Assembly: GCA_961205875.1 (NCBI GenBank) | Contig: OY540809.1 | Location: forward strand, 25,990,267-26,054,266 | DNA length: 64,000 nt | Direction of reading: 5' to 3' | Origin: Sialis fuliginosa | Taxonomy: Eukaryota; Arthropoda; Insecta; Megaloptera; Sialidae | Shown here: one piece after another, positions 361-64,000 of the stretch | Numbering within the stretch: position 1 is the first letter of the stretch | How the letters are laid out: each line of letters opens with the position of its first letter | Position numbers and translations under genes: made by a program | Notes under the pieces: generated by a model | Database searches by the model: none | What the model saw: only the letters and a program-made list of their open reading frames with translations | Told to the model about the DNA's origin: nothing

Positions 361-1302
361 ACTCATTCATTATTTAATCAGCATAAATAGCATGGCTTGG
401 CCATAAAATGCACATTGCACACCCCTTACTTTTTAAACTATCGTTTTTGAAAATGTTTAAAAAAAATGGTAATTTTATTATCGTTACTCACATTTCTTGT
501 AAAAATTGATATATATAGTCTTTAGTACAGGAGTGGTAAACTAAATTTGTGATGTAGTCTACTATTTTCTTCAAGATTATTGTTAAAATTGAATATGTTA
601 ATTATTTCATTTTTAAATCTAGACCGAAATAAAAGCCGCCATAGACCAGTAGATCGCGATCCACTTATTGAATACGCCTGCTCTAGAAGATATGTACTTA
701 AAAATATCATATTTTTATAAAATTTATATTTTAATATATTACATATAAAAGAAACAAAGAAAACGGCGATAAAATATCATAAGTTGTAAAATAAACTGGT
801 ATAGTTATTTGTCGGATGAAATTTTGTAAAGAAATAAGTAATAAAAATAAATATATAAACAAGTTTATTCAATCCCCGAACAATTTAGTGCAATAAATTT
901 CACCAAACTGCTTTTTTCACTGGCTCTCTATTTTCTAATATATTTCCTAAATGAACGCCGATACGGAAATTGTCTATTTAGGCCCTAATTTAGTAAAACA
1001 TTAACCCCGAAAGGCCTATGTTTAGTAACGGATATTAAAGTGATATACTCCTTTATAACTTTGTTTAATTAAATCTAACGACGCATGCAAATGTACGTAT
1101 GTATGTAGTACATGAGTATTTATATCATGGGGGGAGGGGGGGGATTTTCACCTCCTCTTTCACCTGAACACGTAATAACGTAACCTGGAGTTATTGAAAC
1201 TGTGTAATAATCCGATGGGAACAATTTCATTTTTTTTTATTTGAAAATTTAACATTTAAAATTGGTTTCAGTACTTTTGAAGCTAGTATATTGTATATTG
1301 TA
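361..1302. other. no gene seen; AT-rich DNA
   Basis: Only short chance reading frames occur here. A G-rich run (GGGGGGAGGGGGGGG, about 1129-1143) is the only compositional feature. No repeat family from elsewhere in the window was recognised. Confidence 0.5.
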
Positions 1303-1573
1303 TACTCGCGTGGAATACAAATTTCTGTTATGATAGTCGATAAAACAGTTTTTAGTTTCGCATTTACACGCTAGATGTCTCTAAACTAAACCTAACCTAT
1401 CGCGCGTATAGAAGTACTTTTCAACATTTCGAGATACATCCTTCCTCAGAATGCAAGCTATCTCCCTATCAAATTTCTTTAAGATCGGTTGGACGGCTTA
1501 GACGTAACAAGGTAACAAACAGACAGAGAGACAGAGACAGAGACACTTTCGCATTTTATTATATTAGTATGGA
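1303..1573 (-). mobile_element. Helitron-like non-autonomous element, 3'-truncated
   Basis: Read on the minus strand it begins TCCATACTAATA at 1573, then an AAATGCGAAAGTGTCTCTG microsatellite head, a CCGATCTTAAAGAAATTTGA block (the GAACCGATCTTGATGAAATTTGG module of the better copies) and CTTGCATTCTGAGGAAGGA. The module order is the same as in the copies at 20947, 25140 and 43897. The CTAG 3' end is missing or eroded. It lacks coding capacity, as expected of Helitron derivatives mobilised in trans. Confidence 0.7.
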
Positions 1574-2232
1574 TTACATTGATTCTTAACAACTTGAATA
1601 TACTTAAAAAATAATTTTCCTTAATTAAGCAGTATTTAAATGGATTACTTTGGTTAATCAGGCGATTTATAGTATACACGAATTATTATATTAAAGCCAG
1701 ATTCTATCTTTAGTTCACTTTAATGGGAATCGAGTTGTTCAATTTTGATGATACGAGTGTAAACGAAAAAAAATGGATGTGTACTTATATATACACTTTA
1801 GAAGTTACTTATTTGGCGTGATTAAAAAAAACTACGAAAAATTAATCTCAAATATTTTTAAATGCAGGAGAGAAGTGCATCAGTTGAAACGTTTTAAAGA
1901 TAATAAGAGCAAGTGTTCGTTTTTTTTTGGATTAATGGGCTTGTTTTGTATAATTTTCATAAACTCATATTATTTATAACTCTTTATTTAATCAATTTAA
2001 TTACCAAAGTCCGCAAAATAAATTTGTTTTTTAAATTATAGCCTTTTATTTTGTTCATTCTTTTTCTCTAATAATGGCAAAAGTAAAACCAGTAATGAGC
2101 AGGCAGTGATGAACAGTAATGAACACTTGCTAATGATTACAAAATGATAAGTACTACGACACGAAAGATATAAAAGAAAGAATCGTCAAATTTGAAACAA
2201 TGTAAAGCAGTTGCTATGATAATATAATAATT

Positions 2233-2958
2233 AATAAATGTTGCAAAAATAATGCACGTTTTTCCTATGCCTAGATTTAGGTACTATTTTCTCTTAAGGT
2301 TATAACCCAAAGTACTAAGTGTTGTATATCATTTAAAAAAAAATTTACTGACTTCCTTTATTCATTTAAACATTTTTTATAAAATTTCATTTTCACCTAT
2401 CTTAAGGTGATTAAAAAAAGATGTCGAAAAAGGATTTAAAAAAAAATATTTTTGAGTTCAAACTCGGCCGCAATGCAGCGCAAGGGATTATTCCACTATA
2501 ATTTCTTAAATCCTGGTGAAACAATTACAGCAGAAAAGTATTGTCAACAAATTGATGAAATGCATAAAAAATTGGGGTCCATATATCCAGCATTAATCAA
2601 CGGCCACACGTTGCACAAGAAACATTACAAAAGCTGAACAAATTAGGATACGAACCCTTAGCTCACCCATCTTACTCGTCGGACCTCTCACTCACGAATT
2701 ATCACTTTTTCAAGAACCTCGACAACTTTCTACAAGGCAGAGAGTTCAATAATCAAGCAAATGCCAAAAATGCCTTCGAACAATTTGTTGCTTCCAGAAC
2801 TCCCGAGTTTTACGTTAGCGGCATAAACAAACTTGTTTCTAATTGGGAAAAGTATATCGAATCCAATGGTTCTTATTTCGATTAAGTAGTTTAATTATAT
2901 TTTGAAATATGTTTAAAGTTCATAATAAAAAACGTGCATTATTTTTGCAACAACCTAA
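2233..2958 (+). mobile_element. internally deleted mariner, cecropia-like
   Basis: The right end reads (minus strand) TTAGGTTGTTGCAAAAATAA and the left end has the matching GTTGCAAAAATAATGCACG at about 2239. The outermost bases on the left are eroded. The inverted ends resemble the Hsmar1/cecropia mariner terminal repeat TTAGGTTGGTGCAAAAGTAA. A TA follows the right end at 2959. At about 726 bp it is well short of the usual mariner length near 1.3 kb, so much of the transposase N-terminal half is gone. It sits inside a MITE-A copy. Confidence 0.88.
2452..2885 (+). pseudogene. decayed mariner transposase (C-terminal half)
   Basis: This is a remnant of a Tc1/mariner DDD transposase, the nuclear enzyme that cuts and pastes the element at TA. 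Conserved stretches are HYNFLNPGETITAEKY and QQIDEMHKKL in one frame, then RPHVAQETLQKLN, HPSYSSDLSLTNYHFFKNL, DNFLQGREFNN and a C-terminal SNGSYFD before TAA. They closely resemble Hsmar1/SETMAR-type transposases. The DNA-binding domain and first catalytic Asp are absent. A deletion of about 30 bp with a frame change at about 2600 removes the LLHDNA motif that holds the second Asp. The third catalytic position reads N (SLTNYHFF) where active mariners have D. The copy cannot encode an active enzyme. Confidence 0.9.
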
Positions 2959-3143
2959 TAATTAGTGTTCACCATTTTGACACCTATTGGCCGATTGACA
3001 TCAAATCACTCTGTAAGACAGTTAAATGTATATAGATTAATATTCAGAAATGGTAGTAATCAAATATCAACACATACTTCGAATTCAGTACATTTAATTA
3101 AAATTTTTCCATTACTGGGGTCCTTGCCAAGACTGATGAATTT

Positions 3144-5450
3144 AGAGCAATTATCGTCCACACAATAAAGTATTTACGCAAGAAGACGAAAATTCTATGT
3201 CTTACTATTGTATTAAGGCGACCAAAGTTTATTACGGCTTAACAACAGTATTGATTTTATTGTCAAACAATAATTATTATTTAAATAAACATTATTTCAT
3301 TTGGGTTGTTTCTTAATTTTACTTTTTTATTGAAAAATAAACAACTATAACATATGTTTCAATTAACACATGTGGGTGTTTTAATTAACGCTTTCTCGGC
3401 GCCATTTGAAAAACTTCTATTAGCTCTATTTTAGATCGATTCCTACATACACTGGTTCATATTTTGAGAAAATTTGTTTGGTGATTAGAAGTTTAATATA
3501 AGGACTATATTGTGTCCAAATTTTAAATAATTACTAAGTAAAATAACAAAGTTATCATCGAAAACCAAATCACTGTTTCAACTGCAGCACCTCTACCCTA
3601 TTGCTATAATGTAAACGAAATAACACGAATAATAATTCGTGTAAACGTGCAAGGCATACACGCTACCAAAAATATAAAGCACATCGAGTGAATCTCACAG
3701 AAGCAAGCATACGGTAGTGTAAGCCACTGAGAAAGTGAGAGCGTTATGTATTTACAAATACAGTTTTATCTCTCTCGTTCGGCTTCCCGAGTTTACTCGA
3801 AGTGTCACATTTCCAAGCCTGACGAACGACACTTTTAAATGCATAACAAAAATGTCGCGTTACGCCTAAGAAGTATAACTTCAAAAATATTACCAACAAC
3901 GCATTCAATTAAATAGATTCTTCCTCTTATATTATTGTTAGTTCATCGACCAAAGTAATCTATGTATTATAGTTGTGGCTTTAGAAGCAATATAAATAAT
4001 GATATTTACATTATAAATAATGAATATCAAATTAATCGTTGTCAGAATATATTACATAATGGTATTATTTGATACATCTTGACGTCATATTCTTTGTTTC
4101 AATTTTATCGACGATCAATTTATAATAAAATAATTAATTTTTCATAGGTACATTAATCGACATTTATGAACACACCAATAATGTAACAAATATCATTACT
4201 GAATACATTTTATTGACATTTGTTCAACAAGTTCCAATACGTCCAACCACCTGCAGGAGTAGCAGTTCTCAAATGTTATAACAGAGACAGCTAGCGTGTG
4301 TACTCGTCTCTCTCGCAATAGCGGGAGTTATAATGCAGTGCGAGCGAGACGATGCGAGGTGTGCGGAGTTTAATCATGCTCTGTCCTTGCTTTTACACTT
4401 GGATAAAGACGGATAATGTGTATTGTGTTTGTGGTCTTTATCTTACAGTGCGTGATACAAACTGACTGCCAGGGGTTCTGAAAATAAAGAAAGAATAGAC
4501 AGATTAAAAAAAAATTTATAAGACTTTTAATTAAAACATTATTTTCCATTACGTTTAAATTAAATAATTATAAATATCAAAAATTCACAAGAATATATTT
4601 GCGTTTACGGTTTAAGGCTGATCTTCAAAAATATATTGACAATAGTCGACATTTTCAATTTCATAAAACGTTTTAGTTGTAGAGCGTTCGTAGATAGACA
4701 AACATACGCTATTGAAAAAATAGTCGTACTCGATTCAGAGACCCTCAAACTGTTGGAGTATGAATTTGTTAAAAAAATTCATTACTACAAAAATGTAAAA
4801 ATCTTCTAGTAACATTCTCAATTTGTCTTAAAAAAACTTCCTCTGCAATTTGTGACAAAAAGTTAGCCAAAGTATAGACGATTTTTGTTACCGCTGTGAT
4901 AAAAGTAAATTTTATTTTGATACTACTGAATTATATCGTACAATTTTTGCATTAATTCATTTTCTCTTTCGGATGTACTATGGGCTTTATAAGTCGTCTG
5001 CCAGGGTAAAGATCAGAATCGCTTATAACAGATTCGAAAATATTTAGACAAACATCATCGGTTATCTTTTTTTAGGGCGGAGCTTACATATATAGTTACA
5101 TCATTTTAAATAAAAACACAAATATACGTCCATTTCATTAATTAATTTTATATAAAGTTTGACATATTTAAATACTAAAATTCGGAATATCAAATATTTA
5201 TTGCCACAAAATTTATGTACACAATTTTCAATAGATTACATAATAATTTAATCGCACAAATATATATGAGTACCTACTATAAACGAATAGTACTTCTTTA
5301 TCTAGCAAATGAGTTTCAAAATATCTGTCTTTGTTTGGTACATGGAGAAATGATTAAAATATTATAATAATGAAATGGGAGGAGCCTACTAAGTTTGTGA
5401 TAAACGAATATGAATGAAAACTGGTCGACCACTTCTGAAGGCGTCTCTAT
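3144..5450. other. no gene seen; AT-rich DNA with two GC-richer patches
   Basis: No reading frame stands out. Patches at about 3640-3860 (AGAGAAAGTGAGAGCG, CTCTCTCGTTCGGC) and 4250-4400 (TCTCTCTCGCAATAGCGGG, GCGAGCGAGACGATGCG) are less AT-rich than their surroundings. They could be old repeat pieces or regulatory DNA; nothing in them decides. Confidence 0.4.
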
Positions 5451-25462: not shown

Positions 25463-25818
25463 TTTTAATAGGTAATACCTGAAAATGTTTGATTTAATTT
25501 TTGTTCTATATTATTATTTTTGAATTTCTTTTCATAAACTGTGTTTTATTAAGCTCTTCGCAAATAATTTCCACATTACAGAGGTGATACTTCAGTATAT
25601 TATAATTAATGGGTGCAGTTAATGGGTGCACGTATAATTTATCCTGGCGTAGCTGCGGATGATAATAATGAAACACTTTTACTGTTGAAACTAGAACTGA
25701 ATACTAAATCTCTTAATGAGATATTCCAGGGGTAGTGAAATGGAACTTAAATAGTTCTTAAAATTAATGTGAAATAATATTTTATATTACTTTGCTCTTT
25801 ATTACAAGGTTGGTTATA
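25463..25818. other. no gene seen
   Basis: AT-rich flank of the giant inverted-repeat element. Confidence 0.4.
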
Positions 25819-25844
25819 GGGAAAAGCACTCTGAGATGGCATAC
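25819..25844 (+). repeat. left terminal inverted repeat of the giant element
   Basis: GGGAAAAGCACTCTGAGATG followed by GCATAC matches the inverted right end with only a few differences across 26 positions. The core GAGATGGCATA recurs inside the element. Confidence 0.75.
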
Positions 25845-26007
25845 ATTTTGGAAAACCTTCAATTCTGAAAAAAATTAGAAGTATAAAATAAGTTAAATAT
25901 AACTATCATTTTATTTAATCAATTGTTAATTATTAATAACCGCGAACAAAAATAACAATTACTATTATCATTTTGACGCAAATAAAGAGCAAAAAAAACA
26001 TTCTTAC

Positions 26008-26023
26008 TATGCCATCTCACATG
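26008..26023 (-). repeat. internal copy of the terminal GAGATGGCATA word
   Basis: TATGCCATCTCACATG repeats the terminal word in opposite orientation. Similar copies lie near the right end at 32730-32742, 32773-32788 and 33102-33113. Clustered subterminal copies are what transposase-binding sites look like; this is inference. Confidence 0.5.
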
Positions 26024-26179
26024 ATAGTTCTCTAGTGATGAATAAAAAAATTATAAAAAAATATGAAATAGTGTAACAAATTACCAATTTTGCTGTTTTC
26101 GCTAAACCTATGCAAACGATACACCATACTATGGCACGCCGTTTTACTTTTTAATAGTAAAAAAAAAATTCCGTCAAAA

Positions 26180-26400
26180 TTAAATTACGATCATAAAAAT
26201 GAATTATGTTGTGACATAATTTTAATTCAATGAATTAAAATTATGTCTCGACATAATTTTAATTCCCTATTTTTATTATGTTGCAACATAATAATAATAC
26301 ATCAAATTAAAATTATACTCTGATATTTAATATTTCATTGAATTTTTTTTATGCTACAGCATAAAAATAATAAGAGGAATTAAAATTGTATCTGCATAAA
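26180..26400. repeat. left zone of short palindromes
   Basis: Successive words such as AATTATGTTGTGACATAATT and AAAATTATGTCTCGACATAA are imperfect palindromes about 30-36 bp long, with TTATG...CATAA cores. They grade into the 99-bp array. The mirrored zone on the right is 31880-32580. Confidence 0.7.
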
Positions 26401-27855
26401 AAAAAATTCAGAATTAAAATTATGTACATAATTTTAATTCATGAATTATTATTATGTACATAATTTTAATTCGTGAATTATAATTCAGTAAATAAAAATG
26501 ATGCACGTTATTTTATTTTAGAATTAAAATTATGTACATAATAATAATTCAACGAATTTTTATTTTAGAACTAAAATCATGTACAAAATTTTAATTCTAA
26601 AATAAAAATTACATGCAAAATTTATACTTTATAATTAAAATGATGCACGAATTTTTTTGTTACAATTAAAATTATGTACATAATTTTAATTCTAAAATAA
26701 AAATTACGTGCAGAATTTTTATTTTAAAATTAAAATGATGCACGCATTTTTCTATTACAATTAAAATTATGTACATAATTTTAATTCAAACATTCAATTC
26801 TGTATGTGTAATAATTTTAAATTTAAGAATTAAAATGATACACGAATTTTTTTGTTACAATTAAAATTATGTACATAATTTTAATTCAAACATTCAATTT
26901 TTCACGTGTATTAAATTTTATTAAGAATTAAAATGATACACGAATTTTTTTGTTACAATTAAAATTATGTGCATAATTTTAATTCAAACATTCAATTTTG
27001 CACGTGTAGTAAATTTTATTTTAGAATTAAAATGATACACGAATTTTTTTTTTACATTTAACATTATGTACATAATTTTAATTCAAGCATTCAATTTTGC
27101 ATGTATTTTAGTTTTTTTTTTCGAATTAAAATGATACACGAATTTTTTTGTTACAATTAAAATTATGTACATAATTTTAATTCAAACATTTAATTTTACA
27201 TGTATTTTAATTTTTATTTTAGAATTAAAATGATGTACGAATTTTTATGTTACAATTAAAATTATGTACATAATTTTAATTCAAGCATACAATTTTGCAT
27301 GTATTTTAATTTTTATTTTAGAATTAAAATGATGTACGAATTTTTATGTTACAATTAAAATTATGAACATAATTTTAATTCAAGCATACAATTTTGCATG
27401 TATTTTAATTTTTATTTTAGAATTAAAATGATGTACGAATTTTTATGTTACAATTAAAATTATGTACATAATTTTAATTCAAACATTTAATTTTACATGT
27501 GTAATAATTTTTATTTTAGAATTAAAATGTTACACGAATTTTTATGTTACAATTAAAATTATGTACATAATTTTAATTCAAGCATACAATTTTGCATGTA
27601 TTTTAATTTTTATTTTAGAATTAAAATGATGTACGAATTTTTATGTTACAATTAAAATTATGTACATAATTTTAATTCAAGCATACAATTTTGCATGTAT
27701 TTTAATTTTTATTTTAGAATTAAAATGATGTACGAATTTTTATGTTACAATTAAAATTATGTACATAATTTTAATTCAAGCATACAATTTTGCATGTATT
27801 TTAATTTTAATTTTAGAATTAAAATGATGTACGAATTTTTTAGTTACAATTAAAA
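26401..27855. repeat. left satellite array, 99-bp units
   Basis: The word GAATTAAAATGATGTACGAA recurs at about 27222, 27321, 27420, 27519, 27618, 27717 and 27816, an exact 99-bp spacing. Each unit holds AATTAAAATTATGT plus its mirror ACATAATTTTAATT, a perfect 28-bp palindrome, followed by CAAGCATACAATTTTGCATG. Units become more diverged and less regular toward the outer edge (26400-27000), while central units are nearly identical, suggesting recent amplification or homogenisation nearest the centre. Confidence 0.9.
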
Positions 27856-28794
27856 TCCATACTAATATTATAAATGCGAAAGTGTGTCTGTCTGTGTGTC
27901 TGTCTGTTACCTTTTCACGGCTAAACTACTGAACCGATCTTGATGAAATTTGGCAGTGAGATAGCTTGCATCTCGTGGACGGACATAGGCTACTTCGTAT
28001 CTCGAAAATTCAACCCCTATTGAATTGCAAGGGGGTGGAAATATTTTATTTTTTTCAGTAATTAATATTTTACCCCCCGTTACATATGAAGGGTTGTAAG
28101 TGGTTTAATTAGATCCGGCGGGAAAAATACTACGGGGGTGGGGGTTTTAGGGGGAAAAACAACCCTCTATCTCGCATAGGAGCCGAGATATTTACGATTT
28201 TGTATAATGAAAGAAAACCAAAAATAAGACAATTTTTATATTTTACCCCCTGTCGCATATGAGGGGTTGTCATTGGTTTCGTTTAATCTGTTGGAAAAAA
28301 TACTACAGAAGAGGGGTTATTAGAGGGAAAAATCAAACCCTTATCAGATAATCTCGCATAAGAATCGACACTTATATTATAAATGCGAAAGCGTGTTTCT
28401 CAGTCTGTCTATTTGTTACGTGTTCACGGCTAAACCGCTTTACCGATCTTGATGAAATTTGGCAGCGATATAGATTGCATCCAGAGAAAGTACATAGGCT
28501 ACTTTGTATCTCGAAAATTCAACCCCTATTGAATTGCAAGGGGGTGGAAATATTTTTTTTTTTCAGTAATTAATATTTTACCCCCCGTTACATATGAAGG
28601 GTTGTAAGTGGTTTCATTAGATCCGGTGGGAAAAATACTACGGGGGTGGGGGGTTTAGGGGGAAAAACAACCCTCTATCTCGCATAGGAGCCGAGATATT
28701 TACGATTTTGTATAATGAAGAAAACCAAAAATAAGAATATTTTAATATTTCGTCCCCTGCCACATATGAAGGGTTGTTATTGGTTTCAATTTTG
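27856..28794 (+). mobile_element. Helitron-like pieces, left half of the central inverted pair
   Basis: It begins TCCATACTAATATTATAAAT at 27856 directly after an A in the satellite, with GTGTCTGTCTGTGTGTC, GAACCGATCTTGATGAAATT and CTTGCATCTCGTGGACGG. A second start-like segment (TTATATTATAAATGCGAAAG) begins at about 28369 and repeats the modules. The longer body includes ACCCCCCGTTACATATGAAG and GATCCGGCGGGAAAAATAC. No CTAG 3' end is present; the sequence breaks off at the palindrome centre. Confidence 0.8.
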
Positions 28795-28935
28795 CTTGTA
28801 TTTTAATTTTAATTTTAGAATTAAAATGATACACGCATTTTGATTCTGTTGTATTTTTCCCTCCGGATCTAATGAAACCACTTACAACCCTTCATATGTA
28901 ACGGGGGGTAAAATATTAATTACTAAAAAAAAATA
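28795..28935. repeat. spacer at the palindrome centre
   Basis: About 140 bp separates the mirrored GGTTTCAATTTTGC / GCAAAATTGAAACC points. It contains one satellite scrap (TTAGAATTAAAATGATACAC) and a Helitron-body scrap in right-arm orientation. This asymmetry fits rearrangement at an inverted-repeat centre. Confidence 0.6.
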
Positions 28936-29883
28936 ATGCAAAATTGAAACCAATAACAACCCTTTATATGTGACAGGGGATGAAATATTAAAATATTCTT
29001 ATTTTTGGTTTTCTTTCTTAAGACAAAATCGTAAATATCTCGGCTCCTATGCGAGATAAAGGGTTGTTTTTCCCCCTAAAACCTCCACCCCCGTAGTATT
29101 TTTACCGCCGGATCTAATGAAACCACTTACAACCCTTCATATGTAACGGGGGGTAAAATATTAATTACTAAAAAAAATTAAAATTTTCCACCCCCTTGAA
29201 ATTCCTTAGGGGTTGAAATTTCGAGATACAAAGTAGCCTATGTACTTTCTCTGGATGCAATCTATATCGCTGCCAAATTTCATCAAGATCGGTAAAGCGG
29301 TTTAGCCGTGAACACGTAACAAATAGACAGACTGAGAAACACGCTTTCGCATTTATAATATAAGTGTCGATTCTTATGCGAGATTATCTGATAAGGGTTT
29401 GATTTTTCCCTCTAATAACCCCTCTTCTGTAGTATTTTTTCCAACAGATTAAACGAAACCAATGACAACCCCTCATATGCGACAGGGGGTAAAATATAAA
29501 AATTGTCTTATTTTTGGTTTTCTTTCATTATACAAAATCGTAAATATCTCGGCTCCTATGCGAGATAGAGGGTTGTTTTTCCCCCTAAAACCCCCACCCC
29601 CGTAGTATTTTTCCCGCCGGATCTAATTAAACCACTTACAACCCTTCATATGTAACGGGGGGTAAAATATTAATTACTGAAAAAAATAAAATATTTCCAC
29701 CCCCTTGCAATTCAATAGGGGTTGAATTTTCGAGATACGAAGTAGCCTATGTCCGCCCTCGGGATGCAAGCTATCTCACTGCCAAATTTCATCAAGATCG
29801 GTTCAGTGGTTTAGCCGTGAAAAGGTAACAGACAGACACACAGACAGACAGACACACTTTCGCATTTATAATATTAGTATGGA
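28936..29883 (-). mobile_element. Helitron-like pieces, right half of the central inverted pair
   Basis: This is the reverse complement of 27856-28794, including both start-like segments (about 29369 and 29883) and the same junction with satellite sequence (GGATTTTAATTGTAAC). Many long identical blocks remain, such as CCCACCCCCGTAGTATTTTT and CTCGGCTCCTATGCGAGATA, so the two halves duplicated or were homogenised recently. Confidence 0.85.
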
Positions 29884-31880
29884 TTTTAATTGTAACAAAA
29901 AAATTCGTACATCATTTTAATTCTAAAATAAAAATTAAAATACATGCAAAATTGAATGCTTGAATTAAAATTATGTACATAATTTTAATTGTAACATAAA
30001 AATTCGTACATCATTTTAATTCTAAAATAAAAATTAAAATACATGCAAAATTGAATGCTTGAATTAAAATTATGTACATAATTTTAATTGTAACATAAAA
30101 ATTCGTACATCATTTTAATTCTAAAATAAAAATTAAAATACATGCAAAATTGAATGCTTGAATTAAAATTATGTACATAATTTTAATTGTAACAAAAAAA
30201 TTCGTGTAACATTTTAATTCTAAAATAAAAATTGAAATACATGCAACTTTGAATGTTTGAATTAAAATTATGTACATAATTTTAATTGTAACAAAAAAAT
30301 TCGTGTAACATTTTAATTCTAAAATTAAAATTAAAATACATGCAAAATTGAATGCTTGAATTAAAATTATGTACATAATTTTAATTGTAACATAAAAATT
30401 CGTACATCATTTTAATTCTAAAATAAAAATTAAAATACATGCAAAATTGTATGCTTGAATTAAAATTATGTACATAATTTTAATTGTAACATAAAAATTC
30501 GTACATCATTTTAATTCTAAAATAAAAATTAAAATACATGCAAAATTGTATGCTTGAATTAAAATTATGTACATAATTTTAATTGTAACATAAAAATTCG
30601 TACATCATTTTAATTCTAAAATAAAAATTAAAATACATGCAAAATTGTATGCTTGAATTAAAATTATGTACATAATTTTAATTGTAACATAAAAATTCGT
30701 ACATCATTTTAATTCTAAAATAAAAATTAAAATACATGCAAAATTGAATGCTTGAATTAAAATTATGTACATAATTTTAATTGTAACAAAAAAATTCGTG
30801 TAACATTTTAATTCTAAAATAAAAATTAAAATACATGCAACTTTGAATGTTTGAATTAAAATTATGTACATAATTTTAATTGTAACAAAAAAATTCGTGT
30901 AACATTTTAATTCTAAAATAAAAATTAAAATACATGCAAAATTGAATGCTTGAATTAAAATTATGTACATAATTTTAATTGTAACATAAAAATTCGTACA
31001 TCATTTTAATTGTAAAATAAAAATTAAAATACATGCAAAATTGTATGCTTGAATTAAAATTATGTACATAATTTTAATTGTAACATAAAAATTCGTACAT
31101 CATTTTAATTCTAAAATAAAAATTAAAATACATGCAAAATTGAATGCTTGAATTAATATTATGTACATAATTTTAAATGTAAAAAAAAATTCGTGTAACA
31201 TTTTAATTCTAAAATAAAAATTATTACACATGTAAAATTTAATGTTTGAATTAAAATTATGTACATAATTTTAATTGAAACAAAAAAATTCGTGTATCAT
31301 TTTAATTCGAAAAAAAAACTAAAATACATGCAAAATTGAATGCTTGAATTAAAATTATGTACATAATGTTAAATGTAACAAAAAAATTCGTGTATCATTT
31401 TAATTCTTAATAAAATTTAATACACGTGAAAAATTGAATGTTTGAATTAAAATTATGTACATAATTTTAATTGTAACAAAAAAATTCGTGTATCATTTTA
31501 ATTCTAAAATAAAAATTACTACACGTGCAGAATTGAATGTTTGAATTAAAATTATGTACATAATTTTAATTGTAACAAAAAAATTCGTGTATCATTTTAA
31601 TTCTTAATAAAATTTAATACACGTAAAAAATTGAATGTTTGAATTAAAATTATGTACATAATTTTAATTGTAACATAAAAATGCGTGCATCATTTTAATT
31701 CTAAAATAAAAATTCTGCATTTAATTTTTATTTTAGAATTAAATTTATGTACATAATTTTAATTGTAACAAAAAAATTCGTGTATTATCTTTATTATAAA
31801 ATAAAAATTCTACATGTAATTTTTATTTTAGAATTAAAATTATGTACATAATTTTAATTCACCGTATTTCTATTATAATC
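29884..31880. repeat. right satellite array, 99-bp units in reverse orientation
   Basis: These units are the reverse complement of the left array: TTTTAATTCTAAAATAAAAA, TTAAAATACATGCAAAATTG, then the same 28-bp palindrome. There are roughly a dozen more units than in the left arm, accounting for the arm length difference. Two 88-residue minus-strand frames (30110-30376, 30704-30970) are translations of the array with a 33-residue period and are not genes. Confidence 0.9.
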
Positions 31881-32580
31881 CACATTATTTTGATTCTCGA
31901 ATTAAAATTTTGTACATAATTGAACTGTTATGTCGTAGTATGATTTTAATTCTTTGAATTATTATTATGTACATAAATTTAATTCATGAATTAAAATTAT
32001 GTACATAATTTTAATTCAATGAATTAAAATTATGTCGTGACATAATTTTAATTCGTCGAATTATTATTATGTCGGGACATAATTTTAATTCGCCAAATTG
32101 TTATTATGTTGTAACAATAAAAATTCGGCATTAAATTTATGTCACAACATAATAATAAATCGTTTCAAAGAATAAAATTTATGTCATGACTTAAAAATAA
32201 TTCAATGAATTATTTTTATGTCCTGACATAATATTAATTCGACGAATTAAAATTATGTCACGACATAATTTTAATTCATTGAATTAAAATTATGCTGTGA
32301 CATAATTTTAATTCGTCGTATTTTAATTATGCTGCAACATAATAATAATCGCAGAATTATTATTATGTCGGGACATAATTTTAATTCATTGAATTATTAT
32401 TATGTCGTGACATAATTTTAATGATTTAATTTTATGTTGGGACATAATAAAAATTATTTAAATTTATGTTGTGACATAATAATAATTCAATGAATTTCCT
32501 ATGCTCTCTTATGTATTCGAAATTAATTTTATGTTAAAGCATAATTTTAAATATATTTTATTATGCTGTGACATAATAAA
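31881..32580. repeat. right zone of short palindromes
   Basis: GAATTAAAATTATGTCGTGA, CATAATTTTAATTCGTCGAA, TTATTATTATGTCGGGACAT and similar words tile this zone. Most are self-complementary around a TTATG-CATAA core with spacing of about 35 bp. It mirrors 26180-26400 but is longer. Confidence 0.75.
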
Positions 32581-33118
32581 AATGTGTACAAAAAATTTCG
32601 TTTTTTTTTTAAATTCAAAAACATGTTTTTTATTTTATATGTAAAAATTTTACCATTAAAAAGTAAAACGGCGTGCCATACCATACGTCAACATAATAAA
32701 AAACAAATAATAAATAAATTATCATTCCTCTGAGATGGCATATTAAATTATATTAACTAAATTAAGTATACGTATGTCATCTTACATGAATTCTAATTGT
32801 TGATATAATGCATTTTTTAAATATATTTATTCTATTTTTTATACAAAAAATATATAACTATGATATTAAGAAATGAATACTACACTAAATAAAATTTTCG
32901 TACTTATCAAATTTCAAATAGTTTTAATAATAAAACAAAATTTCAATAGTTTAAAAAAAAATTTTTTTTTAACACAAAAATATATAAAACGGAACAACGT
33001 CGTCATTCACTGTATAGTTTAAAAAAATCATTATTTCATTTATTTGTTGTCCAACATCACCTAGTGTCTTATAGAATAACTACTTTTTGAGTTAAACGGT
33101 TGTATGCCATCTTAGAAA

Positions 33119-33144
33119 GTATGCCGTCTCAGAATACTTTCCCC
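33119..33144 (-). repeat. right terminal inverted repeat of the giant element
   Basis: GTATGCCGTCTCAGAATACT then TTCCCC is the inverted counterpart of 25819-25844. An extra GTATGCCATCTTAG copy lies just inside at 33102. Confidence 0.75.
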
Positions 33145-33151
33145 TACCCAC

Positions 33152-47930: not shown

Positions 47931-48525
47931 TAGGGTCGAGCGGGGTAAATATGAAACACCAAATAAATGGGGTAAAAGTGAAACAAGCTTGCAACTAAAA
48001 AACGAATTTGTTTATAGGAAAATTATAAAAACTGACATCATCATTAAAGGTTTGTTAAAGCGACCTGAAAATATGAGTGATGTGTCACCCCTACAGATTT
48101 CCCTGTTAGTCGATGTCAAAACGTGTGAATTAAATTTTAATTCTTTGCACATAACTTTCTGTATATCTCAGATATTAATTAAAGTTACAATTTCACATTG
48201 ATATGCCACAAAGAAGATAAATCAAAGATGCCTTTGTAGCTTTTCTTTTAATTTTTCGAGAAATATTTTTCATTAGAGGCCTGTTTCACTTTTTCCCTTA
48301 CCTGTTTTACTTTTTCCCAAATGAGAGGTTAAAAATAAAACACACTGTTTTCATTTTTAAAGTCCGTGTTTTATCGTACAGTTCAAATGACGTAAGTATT
48401 CAAAATGGTTGTTCATAAGTGCATCTAGTAGAAAAAATTAAAGTATATGAATTTGTATCGTTAACTGTCAAAAAACATTAAAGATTTGTATTTTGTTTCA
48501 CTTTTACCCCAGTTGACTCTACCTA
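47931..48525. mobile_element. MITE with repeated GGGGTAAAAGTGAAACA words
   Basis: Left TAGGGTCGAGCGGGGTAAAT then ATGAAACA pairs with right, inverted, TAGGTAGAGTCAACTGGGGT then AAAAGTGAAACA. GGGGTAAAAGTGAAACAAGC at 47970 and TTTCACTTTTTCCCTTACC/TTTTACTTTTTCCCAAATG near 48285-48320 add further copies of the word. A 70-codon frame (47989-48201) inside has no recognised domain. Ends and word repetition support a DNA transposon derivative. Confidence 0.7.
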
Positions 48526-62982: not shown

Positions 62983-64000
62983 TAATAGGCATGATGCCTA
63001 ATTTTTAAAAATTATTTTATGATGATCTTACGTGTCTCTTATTTCCAAAAAAATGCTTATTTCTGCAGAAAATAAAGGTTTAATCACAAAAATTGACCCT
63101 TTTAAAACTAATTTTTAATTTGACGCCAAAACGCTCGCAGATGCCATGGCGCATTTTTGACATCACGCCTATGTAAACACTACTTGTCAACTATAATAAA
63201 TCCTTGTTCTATCGCTAATGTTTCTCGGTTTTACTTTTGGTAATACAAAACTAAGCAAATTGATAATTTAAAACCACAAAATAATTTATAAGCAGTGCAG
63301 ATATTAATGAAACAAAAATGACATTTACGTAACCGTGACGTCATCCACTCTGACTGGTGTTTTATCAAACATGGCAGATTGCTGTATTTTGCATTTTTTT
63401 TAAATCATATTAATCTCGCTTTTAATATAAAAATAAATACATTTTTTAGAATCTTTTTAACTTATTTCATTATTTAAAATCATAATTTCAGTGATATTTT
63501 GTTACTGGCATCATGCATATTGTGCAAGTATAACTTGCACTTCTCTTAATTTTTTTATTTTACTGAGCCTGTATGATAATATTTACATATAACACAAAAT
63601 ATACATATAAATAGTATTGATTAAAATTTATAACATACCTATTGATGTACATTTTGGACATCCTTGGACGCAATAATCCGGCCGATTAATTTAATTTTAT
63701 TGCGCCTTGGAGATTTGCAGGAATCAATTCACAGAGAGAGAGAGAATGCAAATTTAATGGCGGTCTTCTAACAGGGAATGTCTCAATTTGAATCCGCTGT
63801 TAGAACAATTCCTTTGAAGATCTATGTACATTAAACGGTATTATTGCTCTCAGAATTTTCATAATGTTGTTATTGCATTGAGTGAAAATTGTTCAGCTTT
63901 ATTAACGTTTCAGTATTTAATTAGGGAAACATAAATAGTCTTGAAGATGAAGAATCGTTAAATTGAATTGGCGTCTTTTATAACTTGGCTTATACCCAGA
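62983..64000. other. no gene seen
   Basis: 63120-63180 and 63340-63390 are less AT-rich and contain GATGCCATGGCGCA and GTGACGTCATCC (a CRE-like TGACGTCA). They might be regulatory DNA or a weathered repeat. A short GAGAGAGAGAGA lies at 63735. Confidence 0.35.

Follow-up and report, generated by a model that had tools for sequence, protein, structure and literature searches.

The segment 26130-32680 of the window, the whole 64,000-nucleotide stretch of Sialis fuliginosa DNA analysed here, is very probably a copy of a young, non-autonomous family of foldback DNA transposons that fits the IS3EU/GingerRoot type and was inserted into an older, TA-flanked element. An earlier reading made from the sequence alone (hereafter the sequence-only reading) had proposed a mobile, satellite-carrying foldback DNA transposon, and this is borne out by inner ends that recur in inverted orientation at 15 loci with target duplications. 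The family bears on how satellites come to occupy scattered sites. In its at least 15 young insertions, several of them with paralogous empty sites, the satellite forms the arms of a DNA transposon and has travelled with it, and since the array lengths differ among copies of one family, the spread and the growth of the arrays can be studied separately.

Two nested elements in the stretch 25819-33144

The stretch 25819-33144 consists of an older TA-flanked element and a younger foldback inserted into it at CCATAC. This follows because the inner ends have a duplication of their own and because a related outer copy, L073, shows the site uninterrupted. The inner element, 26130-32680, has its own ends, TATGGCACGCCGTTTTACTTTTTAATRGTAAA, with CCATAC duplicated on both flanks, and the uninterrupted site of L073 contains a single CCATAC and thus represents the window copy's empty site. 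Locus L078 backs this empty site on the right side only. The left and right end regions of the stretch were also queried separately against the assembly (392 Mb, 20 contigs). Both queries gave two sets of matches that adjoin at the inner boundary. Those to the outer part halt there, and those to the inner part start there, overrunning it by no more than 11 bases. The features of the window copy and of its host element are as follows.

26130..32680, strand not assigned: the inner foldback, complete and 6551 bp long, with inverted ends and a 6-bp duplication; ends paired at 14 other loci
26124..26129, plus strand: target-site duplication CCATAC, left; single copy at the L073 empty site
32681..32686, plus strand: target-site duplication CCATAC, right; single copy at the L073 empty site
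26130..26161, plus strand: foldback terminal inverted repeat, left; 31/32 positions equal to the right end
32649..32680, minus strand: foldback terminal inverted repeat, right; 31/32 positions equal to the left end
26552..27856, plus strand: left arm, 99-bp tandem array of 13.3 copies
29883..31859, minus strand: right arm, 99-bp unit inverted, 20.1 copies
31928..32422, minus strand: right subterminal array of palindrome-bearing repeats of about 37 bp
27857..29882, strand not assigned: core, an inverted pair of a dispersed-repeat module (a putative Helitron according to the sequence-only reading)
27848..27882, plus strand: satellite-to-module junction, left; recurrent 35-mer
29857..29891, minus strand: satellite-to-module junction, right, inverted; recurrent 35-mer
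25819..26129, plus strand: older outer element, left part, ends GGGRAAAG...; end matches at other loci
32687..33144, plus strand: older outer element, right part; end matches at other loci
25817..25818, plus strand: left TA duplication flanking the outer element; TA at 14/16 end matches
33145..33146, plus strand: right TA duplication flanking the outer element; TA at 14/16 end matches

The sequence-only reading had taken all of 25819-33144 as one foldback with TA duplications, a terminal GAGATGGCATA word and the arrays as arms. Its outer ends are real: the outer inverted repeat begins GGGRAAAGYAYTCTGAGAYGGCATAC, its first base is 25819 and its last base 33144, and TA adjoins it at 25817-25818 and 33145-33146. 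These ends nevertheless belong to the older element and not to the foldback, as do the terminal word GAGATGGCATA and the duplicated TA, which had been assigned to the foldback itself. An end-pattern search found the outer element with both ends elsewhere at three loci (L074, L075 and L077), where it spans only 0.93-1.11 kb, and the 99-bp unit is absent from all outer-family loci checked (0/14). The inner ends, with a 6-bp instead of a TA duplication, constitute a second family; they are found with different flanks at 14 other loci, and in L073 the site is uninterrupted. A single element bounded by the TA-flanked ends was therefore rejected and is almost certainly incorrect. Of the 14 outer-family loci, 11 yielded at least one outer end by pattern, the remaining three being L081, L082 and L085. 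Among 16 outer end matches, the window included, 15 are preceded by T and 14 by a full TA, which is lacking in L078 and at a match with seven mismatches in L079.

The mirrored structure described in the sequence-only reading was confirmed by repeat finding in the window. The 99-bp array at 26552-27856 (91% matches) is opposed by an array of the same unit in the opposite orientation at 29883-31859 (93% matches), and the inverted arms are 95% complementary across 992 nt. Between them, the central inverted pair 27882-28563 / 29172-29853 is 98% complementary over 682 nt. The mirrored block GGCACGCCGTTTTACTTTTT was likewise found: it occurs exactly twice in the window, inverted and with no mismatches, the chance expectation being 0. 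The element also appears to be coding-free, as had been noted, since only two stop-to-stop frames of at least 90 aa were detected inside it, both within the satellite array. Rfam gave no matches in the window, and the search of window frames against Pfam (sets of five and seven, one common to both) gave none above the cut-off.

Copies, target sites and age of the foldback family

The foldback ends begin TATGGCACGCC, with termini TATGG...CCATA. In the assembly, the 23-bp inner end gave 32 matches at up to three mismatches, 31 of which are family ends, against four for the reversed control. Inverted end pairs were found at 15 loci, counting copy C3d, whose left end came from an 11-mer search. 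The paired copies span from 2342 bp (C11) to 22.7 kb (C8). Four incomplete loci were excluded from the 15: C2:24562448 and C9:87622 with the left end only, C11:879419 with the right end only, and C14:5628004-5636118, which has arms and no recognised ends. Target duplications were examined for all 15 pairs and are exactly 6 bp in 12; copy C1b has 8 bp, C3c has 5 bp, and in C3d five of six positions match. By our own arithmetic, assuming about 68% A+T, a 6-bp match is expected by chance at about 5 in 10,000 per locus.

Uninterrupted relatives of the flanks were identified for four of 13 copies (C1b, C3b, C5 and C8; window copy and C3d not included), and none was found for the other nine among the sequences searched. 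With the window copy, there are four clear paralogous empty sites with a single target copy (window copy, C1b, C3b and C5), the site of C8 lying inside a T run and being ambiguous. The foldback is thus a mobile family. The repeats hit by the C3b and C8 insertions have uninterrupted relatives in the window itself, at 62990-63521 and 48312-48521.

The family is young, because the right ends are nearly identical among seven of the eight fully read copies (98.9-100% over 470 bp in all pairs). The eighth, C3d, has extra sequence in its right end and shows about 61-62% over the 470 bp, with 99-100% in the last 116 bases. Comparison of the left with the right end of each copy gave 31/32 equal positions in six of the eight copies and 30/32 in C10; in C3d, a 5-bp insertion in the left end reduces the ungapped agreement to 18/32.

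Palindromes and satellites are difficult to assemble, and all the evidence comes from the assembly, so it could be argued that the mirrored arrangement is an artefact of a palindrome collapsed or expanded from reads. This is highly improbable. The arrangement is seen at 15 loci with differing flanks and lengths, and with matching or near-matching duplications that no assembler would invent; moreover, the left and right subterminal sequences differ from each other alike in each copy. It should be noted that the sizes of the arrays in the assembly may be inexact.

On C3, a stretch of about 127 kb (C3:32281031-32408286) contains three of the 15 paired copies, and two further copies begin about 245 kb apart, at 29.84 and 30.09 Mb of C1. 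Such clustering points to transposition over short distances or to a hot spot for insertion. Among the one-ended copies, L071 (C9:87322-97300) adjoins a histone cluster, with H3 identified by Pfam and H4-like and H1-like frames by eye. The more diverged L072 (C11:879118-889000) is followed, at most about 7 kb further on, by a frame of the XK-related family (Pfam), which may lie inside or outside the element. A search of viral contigs gave no matches, and prokaryote contigs gave 12 single 18-mer matches in bacterial records, which were taken as chance.

Arms, core module and satellite

Opposed 99-bp arrays were found in 14 of the 15 paired copies (11 listed with both orientations, together with C11, C3d and C2), and in seven of the eight fully read. 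As the sequence-only reading had anticipated, array lengths vary across the copies of the family and the satellite is carried to new loci. Copy C11 is almost pure arm, comprising short ends, subterminal palindromic repeats, and the satellite in one direction and then the other. Copies of the terminal tip within the subterminal palindromes were considered as secondary binding sites; this is not claimed, as the excess over shuffled sequence is too weak (window copy, 3 versus 0-2 in 10 shuffles; C11, 3 versus 0-1).

A module of about 930 bp builds the cores of the read copies except C11 and C3d, which are both without it, and in C10 it is interrupted by another insertion. The 35-mer at the satellite-to-module junction occurs 14 times in five of the eight copies, in both orientations and with at most one mismatch where four were allowed; it was not found in C11, C10 and C3d. 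In the genome search with the module, of which the best 40 of 5190 candidates were scored, none of the 31 best matches listed (90-100%, over 900 of 934 bases) falls outside the family loci, among which the incomplete loci at C2:24.56 Mb and C14:5.63 Mb have one match each. The next full-length matches listed reach at most 88% and lie outside the family. The simplest reading of these sequences is that the module was acquired once and then copied within the family, inverted copying included. Its start sequence had no match in the open-access literature. Diverged relatives of the module (87-88%), in units about 500 bp apart, were observed outside the family at C11:1653882-1656443 and similar loci.

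The interruption in the C10 copy (C10:913368-918505, element positions about 1200-3698) is a TA-flanked, 2.5-kb palindrome beginning CACTGCTTGTCACAATTAGTGGGACAC and inserted in the module. Judging by this sequence, the middle of C10 is evidently a second foldback-like element nested within the first. In the 22.7-kb copy C8, the 8 kb of the middle that was read (L087) contains a retroelement-like frame and other repeats. In C3d, an identical 98-aa frame without a Pfam match is present three times (L070 4737-5030, 6934-7227 and 8382-8675, minus strand). A captured gene was considered and rejected here, as the frame is a dispersed repeat with at least 150 genome matches (150 of 423 candidates scored), a figure that counts the three in C3d.

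The search with the 99-bp unit gave 483 matches. Every match listed (40 of 61 candidates scored) lies in the paired elements, in the one-ended C9 copy, or in the C14 locus. These data bear on the possibility that the satellite arrays spread alone, for instance by reintegration of circles, and captured mobile ends at their edges. Such spread would agree with the presence of the tandem unit in many copies and with the array locus C14:5628004-5636118, where no ends were recognised; free arrays are also possible beyond the matches listed, the best 40 of the 61 candidates. However, all the other listed array matches are either enclosed by paired ends or next to a lone family end, and the target duplications are located at the transposon ends, which makes independent spread of the arrays very unlikely.

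Comparison of 130 monomers from the eight copies gave a mean likeness of 91.7 of 99 positions between arms, versus 91.0 and 92.6 within arms, and five of 62 distinct monomers were found in both orientations. Taken with the nearest neighbours of the monomers, given below, this means that the arms share one pool of monomers, that the place of a monomer along its arm mostly passes on with the copy, and that exchange between arms is occasional.

Mechanism, superfamily and known systems

It is likely that a transposase acting in trans and supplied from elsewhere recognises the short inverted ends TATGGCACGCCGTTTTACTTTTTAATRGTAAA. It would cut at the TATGGC...GCCATA ends, and the element would be pasted into a staggered 6-bp cut. 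Cut-and-paste is the most likely mode, the duplication being observed and the chemistry deduced from it. From the ends inward, the layout comprises subterminal palindromic repeats, opposed 99-bp satellite arms and a variable, often mirror-symmetric core, and each jump takes the satellite to a new site. By analogy with Galileo, the subterminal palindromes may serve as secondary binding sites. The length of the arrays and the content of the core probably change after or between jumps by tandem and inverted exchange: unequal exchange between tandem units would alter the length of a palindromic copy, and an occasional crossing from one opposed arm to the other, by exchange or by template switching, might also mirror the core.

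A broader proposal is made more tentatively and with less than even confidence. The family may represent a foldback lineage beyond the usual foldback groups, moved by an IS3EU/GingerRoot-type transposase, in which the satellite exists only as arms and mirror-image growth of arm and core module is built into the replication or repair of the palindrome, so that new satellite and new palindrome would be built during spread.

The assignment to a superfamily relies on the ends and the target sites. IS3EU elements have TA..TA termini and usually 6-bp duplications, as described in the available part of PMC10045372, and the foldback family has both, with TATGG...CCATA termini and exactly 6 bp in 12 of 15 copies. 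The rule for assignment to IS3EU, as given in the accessible text of PMC4455052, is that positions 1-11 of the terminus align to a member in Repbase. Placement of the family in IS3EU/GingerRoot is provisional because no transposase was found, and we give it slightly better than even odds.

Several observations weigh against the reading of 26130-32680 proposed above. No transposase was found for the family, the middles of several large copies being unread. The rva_4 profile gave no matches, though no control genome matched either; of the 33 rve_3 matches and the IS481-model matches (at least 62; 62 of 571 candidates scored), none falls within a paired element. The regions of integrase matches in L088 and L089 resemble, by eye, polyproteins of copia-type retroelements. 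A 17-mer search at up to two mismatches gave 51 matches, 31 of them family ends; the 20 others, none paired nearby, look like chance, because the reversed-pattern control gave 40. A search for an autonomous partner with the exact 11-mer gave 45 matches; apart from the left end of C3d, it added nothing to the known inverted pairs. As regards the arms, C10 is without the right 99-bp array and has the left only. The nearest neighbours of the monomers are mostly in the same arm of other copies (110/130, ties counted), the opposite arm of the own copy accounting for 40/130, and exchange between arms is therefore infrequent. Finally, all the evidence comes from one assembly. On a separate point, integrase-model matches are frequent on C14 (16.8 Mb), which may be repeat-rich or a sex chromosome. 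A search of the open-access literature with the terminal 11-mer matched two papers, both on immunology.

The foldback might be mobile and yet belong to another superfamily, for example Mutator-like, as said of most foldbacks, or to an unnamed lineage, its likeness to IS3EU being convergence. The failure to find a transposase or an end-matched autonomous partner is consistent with this, as is the slight variation of the target duplications from 5 to 8 bp. Against it are the TA..TA termini and the 12 of 15 duplications that are exactly 6 bp, not 8-10. We consider such an affiliation possible and short of probable, and an IS3EU/GingerRoot-type foldback is retained as the preferred reading.

The foldback type itself is recognised by inverted arms of tandem subrepeats (14 of the 15 copies), by shared ends with duplications (15 pairs) and by empty sites (four). 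No open-access paper was found joining satellite DNA, butterfly, foldback and transposon. A search for IS3EU and Lepidoptera gave only catfish and tree papers, by title, and a 2022 review mentions foldbacks, satellites and Lepidoptera in the text available (PMC9659126).

Foldbacks with tandem repeats in their inverted arms are already known from Tetris, Galileo and FB. The FB element of Drosophila melanogaster has inverted arms of short tandem repeats, a variable middle and a 9-bp duplication; its architecture is like that of the present family, but the sequences and the length of the duplication differ. Galileo, of the P superfamily, has 7-bp duplications and a P-type transposase according to the accessible part of PMC3573991, and binding of the transposase to the repeats was tested, as stated in the available text of PMC3688188. 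As in Galileo, the inverted repeats of our family are long and internally repetitive, copies consisting of two arms only exist, and the number of tandem repeats differs between arms and between copies (PMC3573991, PMC3688188, in the parts available). Exact 7-bp duplications are absent among our 15 paired copies.

The closest in architecture is Tetris, a foldback of Drosophila virilis, for which the available part of PMC4079207 gives 8-10 bp duplications, a unit of about 220 bp, three structurally complete copies and a proposed Mutator affiliation. Both are non-autonomous, with long inverted arms containing internal tandem repeats, a variable middle without apparent coding capacity and rearranged copies; in both the repeat is a building block of a satellite, and a transposase has been found for neither (PMC4079207, same portion). 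Unlike Tetris, the present family, known from 15 paired copies, is built on a 99-bp unit, has TA..TA termini and carries a mirrored core module that was co-amplified, and its duplications are mostly 6 bp, a single copy having the 8 bp that falls within the 8-10 bp of Tetris and Mutator.

Dispersal of satellite-like arrays by a mobile element is also described for Helentrons of the Pacific oyster, which carry satellite-like repeats (PMC7492417, in the text available); the carrier there is a Helentron, in contrast to the foldback DNA transposon of the present family with its inverted arms. In its TA..TA termini and 6-bp target duplications the family is like IS3EU/GingerRoot, whose account in PMC10045372 makes no mention, in the part available, of foldback or satellite-armed members. 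If the placement is true, it would widen the range of superfamilies known to yield foldbacks.

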